From IMG/VR virus record IMGVR_UViG_3300020156_000030, positions 1-62,257 of that record: a stretch of 62,257 nucleotides of DNA. The stretch is one strand, 5' to 3'. This document shows positions 27,652 through 29,504 of this stretch, one piece after another (the stretch's first letter is position 1; every line of letters starts with the position of its first letter). The notes below the pieces were generated by a model that saw only the letters and a list, made by a program, of their open reading frames with translations, was not told the DNA's origin and made no database searches. Position numbers and translations under genes: made by a program. The DNA is from a virus.

Positions 27652-27816
27652 ATGTTCTGGCTCATCATCGTTCTCATCGTCATCGCCGCCCTCCTGCATT
27701 TCATCTGGGTGGCGCTGGAGAAAATCGCCATCGAGCTCATGCGGATCAACGGACAGATAGAGGCGCGCACTCATGCCACACCCGAAACCAGCTACCCCCG
27801 TTACTCCAGAAGGTAA
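27652..27816 (+). CDS. Small single-pass membrane protein (54 aa)
   Basis: AAGGAAGGGGG precedes the ATG. An N-terminal membrane helix (FWLIIVLIVIAALLHFIWV) is followed by an amphipathic tail. The TAA stop is in the right arm of a palindrome at 27800-27817, and the end overlaps the next gene by 44 bases. Confidence 0.6.
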   Translation: MFWLIIVLIVIAALLHFIWVALEKIAIELMRINGQIEARTHATPETSYPRYSRR

Positions 27817-28081
27817 CGGCATCCGCGAGCTCATCTGGGGCGTGCCGGGTGATGTTACCCTGCACGGGGACCGTGGGGACGTAGCTGGGGTAAACTACGG
27901 GGTTCACGTAGTGGATATGGGGCCATTAGACCTCACTGGGATGGGGTGGGGCCATGGGGACGGATATGGTCACCACCGTAGAAGCGGAGCAGGGCATGGG
28001 CGAGACATCGGCCGGGGGGATGATGGGTTCGGATCAGAGCAAAAAAGCATACGCGAGCTCATCTGGGGCGTGCCCGGGTGA
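27773..28081 (+). CDS. RELIWGVPG-family glycine-rich protein 1 (102 aa)
   Basis: After a short lead the protein has IRELIWGVPGDV, then a Gly/Asp/His/Tyr-rich tail (GMGWGHGDGYGHHRRSGAGH). It ends in a second, truncated copy, IRELIWGVPG, cut by TGA. This is the first of six related, overlapping genes. Proteins with an ELIWxxPG head and a GDGYG-type tail occur in other phages without known function. A palindrome lies at codons 10-15. Confidence 0.6.
   Translation: MPHPKPATPVTPEGNGIRELIWGVPGDVTLHGDRGDVAGVNYGVHVVDMGPLDLTGMGWGHGDGYGHHRRSGAGHGRDIGRGDDGFGSEQKSIRELIWGVPG
27800..27817. repeat. Palindrome variant shared by two overlapping genes
   Basis: GTTACT and GGTAAC flank CCAGAA; it holds the stop of the 27652 gene and codes within the start of the next one in a different frame. 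Confidence 0.75.
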
Positions 28082-28271
28082 TGTCATCCGCGAGCTCATC
28101 TGGAGCGCGCTTGGTGATGTATCCATCTCCAAGGGCGAAGTGTCCGAGAGCTACGGCATCCACAGCATCCTCGGAATTAATTCTATCTCACTCGGGGGTT
28201 GGGGCGACGGCACGGGGGGATATGGTGAGCCACGTGGTAAGGGGGCTGGAAACGGGAAAGAGAGGCGGTAG
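28023..28271 (+). CDS. RELIWGVPG-family glycine-rich protein 2 (82 aa)
   Basis: The protein contains GDVIRELIWSALGDVSIS followed by a Gly-rich tail (SLGGWGDGTGGYGEPRGKG). Its N-terminal part reads through the DNA of the preceding RELIW copy in another frame, so the start at 28023 is uncertain. An extra base near 28070 relative to the first unit splits what may have been one longer frame with protein 1. Confidence 0.45.
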   Translation: MGSDQSKKAYASSSGACPGDVIRELIWSALGDVSISKGEVSESYGIHSILGINSISLGGWGDGTGGYGEPRGKGAGNGKERR

Positions 28272-28461
28272 CATCCGCGAGCTCATCTGGTTCGTCATCG
28301 GGCACCATGCAGGAGAGAAAGAGGACGAAAAAGTTCGTCCATCCGATTATGGCATGGAGTTCTGGAACAGAGGATACGGCGACGGAACTTATGGCCATAC
28401 CCATGCAGACGGAGGGGGTAACGGAGTAGAGTGGAAACCCTTAACCTCAGGAGGTAAGTGA
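28222..28461 (+). CDS. RELIWGVPG-family glycine-rich protein 3 (79 aa)
   Basis: Starts at ATG 28222 inside the previous gene. The core is GSIRELIWFVIGHHAGEK and the tail is rich in Gly, Tyr, His and Asp (NRGYGDGTYGHTHADGGG). Overlapping starts of this kind repeat along the array and suggest translational coupling. Confidence 0.5.
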   Translation: MVSHVVRGLETGKRGGSIRELIWFVIGHHAGEKEDEKVRPSDYGMEFWNRGYGDGTYGHTHADGGGNGVEWKPLTSGGK

Positions 28462-28465
28462 ACAA

Positions 28466-28753
28466 ATGAGCAGCATGTTCGGAAAGCCGGTCCTCGTGAC
28501 CACCGCACACAAGGGTGTGTTCTTCGGCTACTTCTCAAAGCGGGAAGGCACCACGGTGCATCTGACCCGATCGCGCAACTGCATCTACTGGCCCGCCGAG
28601 AACCGTGGTTTCCTCGGGCTGGCGAAGTGGGGTCCGCTGGAGGGGGCACGCATCGGCCCGGAGGCTGACATAGAGCTACTCGACGTGACCTCCATCGCAC
28701 AGTGCACGGACGAAGCTGTGCAGCGGTGGGAAGCTGCGCCTTGGAGCGAGTGA
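28466..28753 (+). CDS. Conserved phage protein, DUF6948-like (95 aa)
   Basis: The pattern VLVTTAHKGVFFGYFSKREG, then CIYWPAENRGFLGLAKWGPL, and IELLDVTSIAQCTDEA fits a small conserved phage family of unknown function that I recall as DUF6948. It interrupts the RELIWGVPG array. AGGAGGTAAG from a palindrome precedes the ATG. It overlaps the next gene by four bases. Confidence 0.65.
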   Translation: MSSMFGKPVLVTTAHKGVFFGYFSKREGTTVHLTRSRNCIYWPAENRGFLGLAKWGPLEGARIGPEADIELLDVTSIAQCTDEAVQRWEAAPWSE

Positions 28754-29022
28754 TTACCCCGGGGGTAACACTCCGGGAGCTCATCTGGGGCGTGCCCGGC
28801 GATGTGAATTACTTCGACCTGACTGTCGGTGAGTATGGCACCTCCTATTTTTCAGGTGACGGTGATGGAAGCCCACACCTCCGTGATGGCACCTTCTACG
28901 ACCCACCATGGGGGGAAGGGCTTATAGTGGGGCATGGGGATGGGGCAGGAGGAGATGAAGACGGAACAATGGGATACTGGGGGTTTGATGACGGGTCGGG
29001 AGGGACTCTGGGGAATTTCTGA
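28750..29022 (+). CDS. RELIWGVPG-family glycine-rich protein 4 (90 aa)
   Basis: The GTG start overlaps the previous TGA. The first codons are the palindrome at 28754-28768 itself, giving MITPGVTLRELIWGVPGDV. The tail is Gly/Asp-rich (GEGLIVGHGDGAGGDEDG). It is the best-preserved family member with a clear start. Confidence 0.6.
   Translation: MITPGVTLRELIWGVPGDVNYFDLTVGEYGTSYFSGDGDGSPHLRDGTFYDPPWGEGLIVGHGDGAGGDEDGTMGYWGFDDGSGGTLGNF
28754..28768. repeat. TTACC-N5-GGTAA palindrome forming codons 2-7
   Basis: The spacer is CCGGG. It lies in the coding start of a RELIWGVPG protein and just after the upstream stop. Confidence 0.85.
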
Positions 29023-29227
29023 GCTCCTCTGGGGCATGCCCGGCGAGGTCGATAGCGGCCCCAACCACGCACCCATTGAACTGGTTTACAACCGTCCGTT
29101 CTCCTATGGACACGGGGCGCACAGCGGTAGGGGATGGGGTGGGGAGAAATATGGAAAGGGTTACTCCCACGGAACCGGCGAAGGGCGCATAGTGGGTAAC
29201 GACGATGGGTCATATGGAAATCCGTGA
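28988..29227 (+). CDS. RELIWGVPG-family glycine-rich protein 5 (79 aa)
   Basis: The core here reads ISELLWGMPGEVDSG, followed by a Gly/Tyr/His/Ser-rich tail (GHGAHSGRGWGGEKYGKGYS). I prefer the ATG at 28988; an upstream ATG at 28934 would lengthen the overlap with the previous gene. Confidence 0.5.
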   Translation: MTGREGLWGISELLWGMPGEVDSGPNHAPIELVYNRPFSYGHGAHSGRGWGGEKYGKGYSHGTGEGRIVGNDDGSYGNP

Positions 29228-29504
29228 GTTGATCTGGGGGATACCCAGCGAATGCACCCCCGCAGATCGAGCTCCTATCCTGAAGAGTTACCTTCGGGGT
29301 TACTGCTCATTCTCTACTTATGGGCATGGGTGGGGGGCATATCCGGCCACCACCGGATCAGGAAGTGGGCGATGCAACCAAACAGATATATCCGGGAGTC
29401 ATAGTGGGGCGGGATTGGGGTGCCCCTCGGGGTATCAGTCAGGAGGGGGAGAGGGCATTGGGGCCAGCGACACGGAGCATAGTGATGGCTCCGGCTTAAT
29501 GTAA
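29214..29504 (+). CDS. RELIWGVPG-family glycine-rich protein 6 (96 aa)
   Basis: Begins MEIRELIWGIPSECTP, then a Tyr/Gly/Ser-rich tail (YGHGWGAYPATTGSGSGR). The start lies inside the previous gene (an ATG at 29205 is also possible). It is the last member of the array, followed by a cluster of palindrome half-sites. Confidence 0.55.
   Translation: MEIRELIWGIPSECTPADRAPILKSYLRGYCSFSTYGHGWGAYPATTGSGSGRCNQTDISGSHSGAGLGCPSGYQSGGGEGIGASDTEHSDGSGLM

Follow-up and report, generated by a model that had tools for sequence, protein, structure and literature searches.

A recurrent phage gene pair of DUF6948 and an alternating-glycine partner, very probably amplified in tandem in one IMG/VR virus

The repeats of silk-like proteins are of the GxGxG kind, with glycine at every second residue, and this spacing is shared by the tails of the phage proteins described here, although in these the intervening residue is tyrosine, serine or aspartate, the proteins are only about 50-150 amino acids long, and they are apparently the products of early genes rather than structural fibres. 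Two further systems offer a comparison by analogy, with no claim of descent. The first is the Hfq of Acinetobacter, which has a glycine-rich repetitive C-terminus, such that an Sm-type barrel is combined with glycine-rich low-complexity sequence (PMC5663733). The phage unit is alike in that DUF6948 is predicted to form an Sm-like barrel, but its glycine-rich part is encoded by a separate neighbouring gene, there is no sequence similarity to the Sm/LSm/Hfq proteins, and both ring formation and RNA binding by DUF6948 are hypothetical. The second is the YG domain of PEX13, a tyrosine- and glycine-rich sequence associated with a nuclear-pore-like phase (PMC9795577). The phage tails likewise represent low-complexity sequence rich in tyrosine and glycine, with possible multivalent cohesion, but they are not homologous to this domain, they have a strict alternation of glycine, and they are rich in aspartate and serine. 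One half of the phage unit is covered by the Pfam family DUF6948 (PF22253), which includes the window gene discussed below, covers only that half and gives no function. No description of the GxGxG partner was found in Pfam, PHROGs, NCBIfam, PADLOC or the open-access literature, and a search of that literature returned no paper that names DUF6948 or prints the tail sequences. Judged from these sources, the two-gene unit matches no described system and is apparently undescribed.

The window analysed here is the whole 62,257-nucleotide stretch of one single IMG/VR virus record, in which an array of short genes lies upstream of an AAA ATPase gene and a DNA polymerase gene. Seven copies of a head-encoding segment are found within 1.4 kb of this phage contig, six of which lead an open frame with a glycine-rich tail. 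A DNA pattern search that allowed up to 3 mismatches recovered CGCGAGCTCATCTGGGGCGT five times, in each case on the plus strand from 27824 to 28793, against 0.02 occurrences expected; the two most diverged copies, at 29015 and 29220, lie beyond that limit. At the protein level, a profile scan of all six frames gave exactly six strong heads, again all on the plus strand (27818, 28083, 28270, 28768, 29012 and 29217), with scores of 37-54 against 21 for the next best hit. The seven DNA copies reported in the initial annotation are therefore borne out, one of them as a truncated copy, but the coordinates given there were some 2 nucleotides too low; the accompanying claim of six short overlapping genes, each led by a head, holds for six heads with open frames but not for the seventh copy, which leads none.

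All of the array genes are encoded on the plus strand. Gene A (27773-28081, 102 amino acids) comprises a leader, the head GIRELIWGVPGDV (27818-27856), an alternating-glycine tail and, at the C-terminus, a truncated second head. The latter is the seventh copy (28046-28081), which is in frame with gene A, reads SIRELIWGVPG (28046-28078) and then runs straight into a TGA stop, such that it ends one gene and heads no other. It duplicates the gene B head in tandem, 37 nucleotides away from it, and carries one extra base in CCCGGGTGATG relative to the other copies, for which reason the start and the frame history of gene B are only putative. Within 28040-28081 this copy, the second in order, has an AAAAAAG run and CCCGGGTGATG on its flanks and stands out of frame with gene B, which would reflect a pair of compensating indels or else a slippage site. 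Gene B itself (28020-28271, about 83 amino acids from the putative start, head VIRELIWSALGDV at 28083) overlaps gene A by 62 nucleotides, and gene C (28222-28461, about 79 amino acids, head SIRELIWFVIGHH at 28270) overlaps gene B by 50. The array is then interrupted by the DUF6948 gene (28466-28753, plus strand, 95 amino acids), which is unrelated to genes A-F and whose stop is overlapped by 4 nucleotides (GTGA) by the start of gene D (28750-29022, 90 amino acids, head TLRELIWGVPGDV), a GTG codon with GGAG upstream. Gene E (28988-29227, 79 amino acids, head GISELLWGMPGEV) overlaps gene D by 35 nucleotides, and gene F (29205-29504, 99 amino acids, or 96 if begun at 29214, head EIRELIWGIPSEC) overlaps gene E by 14-23 nucleotides. 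The heads of A, D, E and F are of the form G-x-P, those of B and C being without the proline.

Of the window genes compared against all collected loci, only that at 28466-28753 matched widely. Its assignment to DUF6948 is clear, with 84.4 bits over 28466-28750 against a cut-off of 27. An AlphaFold model built with 47 homologs has a pLDDT of 95, and Sm/LSm proteins account for nearly all of the best 50 PDB matches that Foldseek listed for it (best E 8e-4, TM mostly 0.45-0.65). Among viral models, it is matched best by other proteins of the DUF6948 family. A profile of the 47 sequences found no PDB chain with sequence similarity at E up to 1. The predicted likeness of DUF6948 to the Sm proteins is thus one of fold only, among small barrels that are easily confused.

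How general is the association between DUF6948 and glycine-rich neighbours of this kind? The alternating-glycine DNA pattern GGNNAY, repeated four times, occurs in at least 120 stretches of IMG/VR, from which the frequencies are those of samples, and at many of these loci the product is a small protein in which a short head precedes a GYGDGSG-type tail. An iterated profile detected DUF6948 in 50 of the 120 GxG loci listed, all of which had been chosen by the DNA pattern only, and in every one of these the two genes are no more than 1 kb apart, mostly at -64 to +56 nucleotides; DUF6948 was present in none of 56 control loci (558 kb). A near-reciprocal search, seeded by the DUF6948 motif and with a query alignment drawn partly from GxG loci, gave 79 loci with at least 60 nucleotides downstream of DUF6948, and in 74 of these a GxG open reading frame starts within 60 nucleotides, compared with 3 of 942 control positions. 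With the other five, the GxG frame is found 330-450 nucleotides downstream in three, one (L239) has an irregular glycine tail, and the last (L228) has a different gene that by eye is HNH-endonuclease-like. In many phages the DUF6948 stop usually overlaps the start of the head-GxGxG gene. The linkage between the two genes is well supported.

Several of the sampled GxG genes are housed in replication/recombination modules, and in 21 loci of the DUF6948 set the contig ends less than 600 nucleotides downstream, in many cases inside the repeat. One GxG class, with the head PV, has 2 nucleotides upstream of it a diverged DUF6948-like gene (RGWIFAGDV...VHVFKWESIGF), the relationship being judged by eye. 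A separate observation concerns phrog_18306, whose 242-position profile matches a GxG tail (56-135) as well as DUF6948 (157-229), which may mean that the two are fused in some natural proteins.

The proteins encoded next to DUF6948 have a recognisable architecture. A head of the form ΦΦxGxxP is present in 53 of 77 proteins of the DUF6948 set, compared with 1.3 after shuffling, and in most of them arginine precedes the glycine. The usual head is ΦΦRGExP, which in L257 reads ELIRGEVPEW, with the G-x-P form found in 7 of the 77. At the level of residues, the ELIWGVPGD of the window is a variant of the usual head, one residue shorter. The earlier statement that similar heads with GDGYG tails occur in other phages was right in kind, the heads in question being ΦΦRGExP, but the exact RELIWGVPG was found nowhere else, being absent from annotated phages (tblastn), IMG/VR (head patterns) and bacterial genomes. 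Head similarity tracks DUF6948 similarity, with a Mantel r of 0.32 where the highest of 2000 permutations was 0.116; the correlation fits a contact between head and DUF6948 but is also expected from the simple co-inheritance of neighbouring genes. Behind the head, the x of the GxGxG tails is mostly tyrosine, serine or aspartate, and in 51 loci of the DUF6948 set the tail is followed by a C-terminal domain, YW...IAFWRSD...LHAT...GEV...GALRREI (for instance L196:4393-4734), for which the AlphaFold model has a pLDDT of 96 and no PDB match. This domain has no Pfam or PHROGs match in the examples scanned, and it is absent from the window and also from the Pectobacterium phages. A further GxG class beside DUF6948 (L109, L117, L148 and L048) has a different C-terminal domain, FF.WHH.LTGSC..GR..F.

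Tandem arrays of copies with the same head are found elsewhere too, with five in L103 (MGLKAFLKF), four in L041, at least three in each of L036 and L044, and two in each of L082 and L083; those of L103 and L041 are near DUF6948. In L103 (982-1656) the gene for a PcfJ-like protein stands between DUF6948 and the five-copy array. Direct searches gave no significant family in PHROGs or Pfam for genes A-F and no NCBIfam family for gene D. Pfam matches of GxG tails to TrAA12 were rejected as weak, nearly all below the cut-off and reflective of composition, and DNA-BLAST with the tail repeats gave no match, low-complexity filtering probably masking them. Genes A-F are, with little doubt, tandem diverged paralogs of the DUF6948 partner.

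The reading preferred here is of a general unit made up of the gene for a Sm/LSm-like DUF6948 protein followed by one for a hydrophobic head and an alternating-glycine tail, sometimes with the further C-terminal domain. In the window phage the partner has very probably been copied to six genes flanking DUF6948, with loss of the regular tail repeat and without a C-terminal domain. The partner of the head is likely to be the product of the DUF6948 gene that interrupts the array, a gene passed over in the initial annotation, and the chances are about even that the head is a docking part, binding the DUF6948 barrel that is translated together with it. If DUF6948 were to form Sm-type rings, several Gly/Tyr/Asp tails would project from each of them and act through multivalent weak contacts. 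Early in infection, RNA or a host protein would in this way become covered by a disordered, sticky and multivalent coat or condensate, although the condensate or sequestration step is doubtful. Rapid change of the tails would follow if only their alternating-glycine character mattered, or if a host factor selected for change, and the window array would raise both the dose and the diversity of partners around one DUF6948. The identity of A-F as DUF6948 partners and the docking and multivalent-tail mechanism, taken together as one explanation, fall somewhat short of an even chance.

A fixed head with a variable tail, as proposed in the initial annotation, is well supported by constant heads and hypervariable tails in relatives, by heads that follow DUF6948 subtypes, and by the shared-head tandem arrays found elsewhere; the effector role also suggested there for the tails is hypothetical. 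Among cultured phages, the pair occurs in Iodobacter phage PhiPLPE, in a Vibrio phage and in Pectobacterium/Dickeya phages, and it is also present in the record of an uncultured podovirus from Manatee Spring. In PhiPLPE the GxG gene (L261, 1160-1480) is missing from the annotation, and in the Chlorobiaceae phage CV-1-33 the repeat adjoining DUF6948 (L263:3277-3522) is annotated in the wrong frame (MAMAMAL...). Eight Pectobacterium/Dickeya phages have DUF6948 genes that are 88-100% identical and a constant head, MSKLIKPE(K/R)YG, yet their tails range from 53 to 89 amino acids, a diversity among close relatives of the kind that the initial annotation suggested looking for; for instance, phages Ymer and Amona have identical DUF6948 genes and different tails. 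Changes in tail length keep the frame, and the frames are open in all eight rather than broken at random, an answer that applies to the family and not to the window phage. Variable codons of the NNC/NNT type might suggest a diversity-generating retroelement behind the changes in the tails, but this origin was set aside, since tail length shifts by steps of the repeat and the codons are confined to those for Y/S/D/N.

Relatives of the window phage itself were located through its AAA ATPase (n=14). The core genes of the nearest relatives match those of the window phage, but the region of 23.7-29.5 kb does not, and a glycine-rich protein in one relative (L019), considered as a counterpart of the array, proved unrelated. 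DUF6948 gave no match in the available records of the 14, several of which are fragments, with control genomes giving no match either, and the unit is therefore regarded as accessory. This accessory location, the hypervariable tails at a constant head and the tandem amplification are all features that would suit a counter-defence decoy, whereby an early anti-defence or host-takeover protein would present its variable tail as bait or binding surface in an arms race, with DUF6948 as carrier or regulator. Such a role is unlikely, however, in that PADLOC models include no family for DUF6948, for the full-length partner or for array proteins A, D and F, and in that the tails seem to vary by gaining and losing repeat units while keeping their composition, and not by directed replacement of amino acids.

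Are the window genes still under selection as proteins? Among the six heads, nucleotide changes at codon positions 1, 2 and 3 number 12, 6 and 17 (p=0.04), and the head frame has 39 synonymous pairwise differences where the other two have 23 and 6, a distribution that suggests protein-level selection. In the six tails, when pooled, there are 43 glycine pairs at distance 2 where 24 would be expected, a value reached in none of 5000 shuffles, whereas those at distance 1 are depleted (10 vs 24) and those at distance 4 are raised; the other two frames of the tails contain 11 and 21 stops. The tails have no residue-by-residue homology, their common rule being a glycine at every second residue, and compared with those of other phages their alternating runs are short and irregular. 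Since glycine and serine codons are mixed in the window tails, the rule is unlikely to reflect a fresh DNA repeat. The irregularity of the tails, the frame-shifted double head at 28046-28083 and the loss of the head proline in B and C could all be taken to mean that A-F are amplified, drifting and non-functional remnants of one former GxG partner, but the six frames are intact, the heads and alternating glycine are conserved at the protein level across the six copies, and the overlapping starts are kept. Moreover, L239 provides an example of a partner with an irregular tail that has an intact C-domain and a head of the LILWG kind, LILWGEPIPEPF, and simple decay is accordingly quite improbable.

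The tails of other phages are near-perfect hexamer repeats with restricted codons. Across 145 loci (L032-L151 and L181-L260), 1129 of 1165 serine codons are TCC/TCT and only 5 are AGC/AGT, within a residue choice of Y/S/D/N, which suggests either repeat expansion with single-step change from the tyrosine TAY codons or a nucleotide-level constraint, and leaves room for a DNA-level component. In the window the array is G-rich on one strand, with 68 GGG runs against 20 and a G-quadruplex motif at 27938. It is nevertheless very improbable that such G-rich repeats act as DNA or RNA, through structure, recombination or translation coupling, with the peptides as by-products, given that head codon changes fall mainly at third positions, that alternating glycine is kept in the window despite mixed glycine and serine codons, that the frames stay open with in-frame changes of tail length in all eight Pectobacterium relatives, and that the starts overlap the DUF6948 stop.

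The significance of the DUF6948-partner unit is that it recurs in unrelated phages, although Pfam gives no function for one half of it and the other half escapes Pfam, PHROGs and NCBIfam. Genome annotations sometimes omit the partner gene, and assembled contigs often end at its repeats. In its fullest form, in which hypervariable silk-like tails, brought together by a Sm-like ring, would form a condensate that sequesters RNA or protein and the window phage would hold a six-member tandem family, the proposal of an undescribed phage system is more speculative and on present evidence unlikely to be right in every part. The unit would nonetheless offer a natural pairing of a Sm-like fold with low-complexity sequence, in which the tail differs between nearly identical phages and for which cultured phages exist. 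The window phage very probably represents this unit after amplification and tail erosion, and as such it may separate what is kept, namely the head and the alternating glycine, from what is variable.
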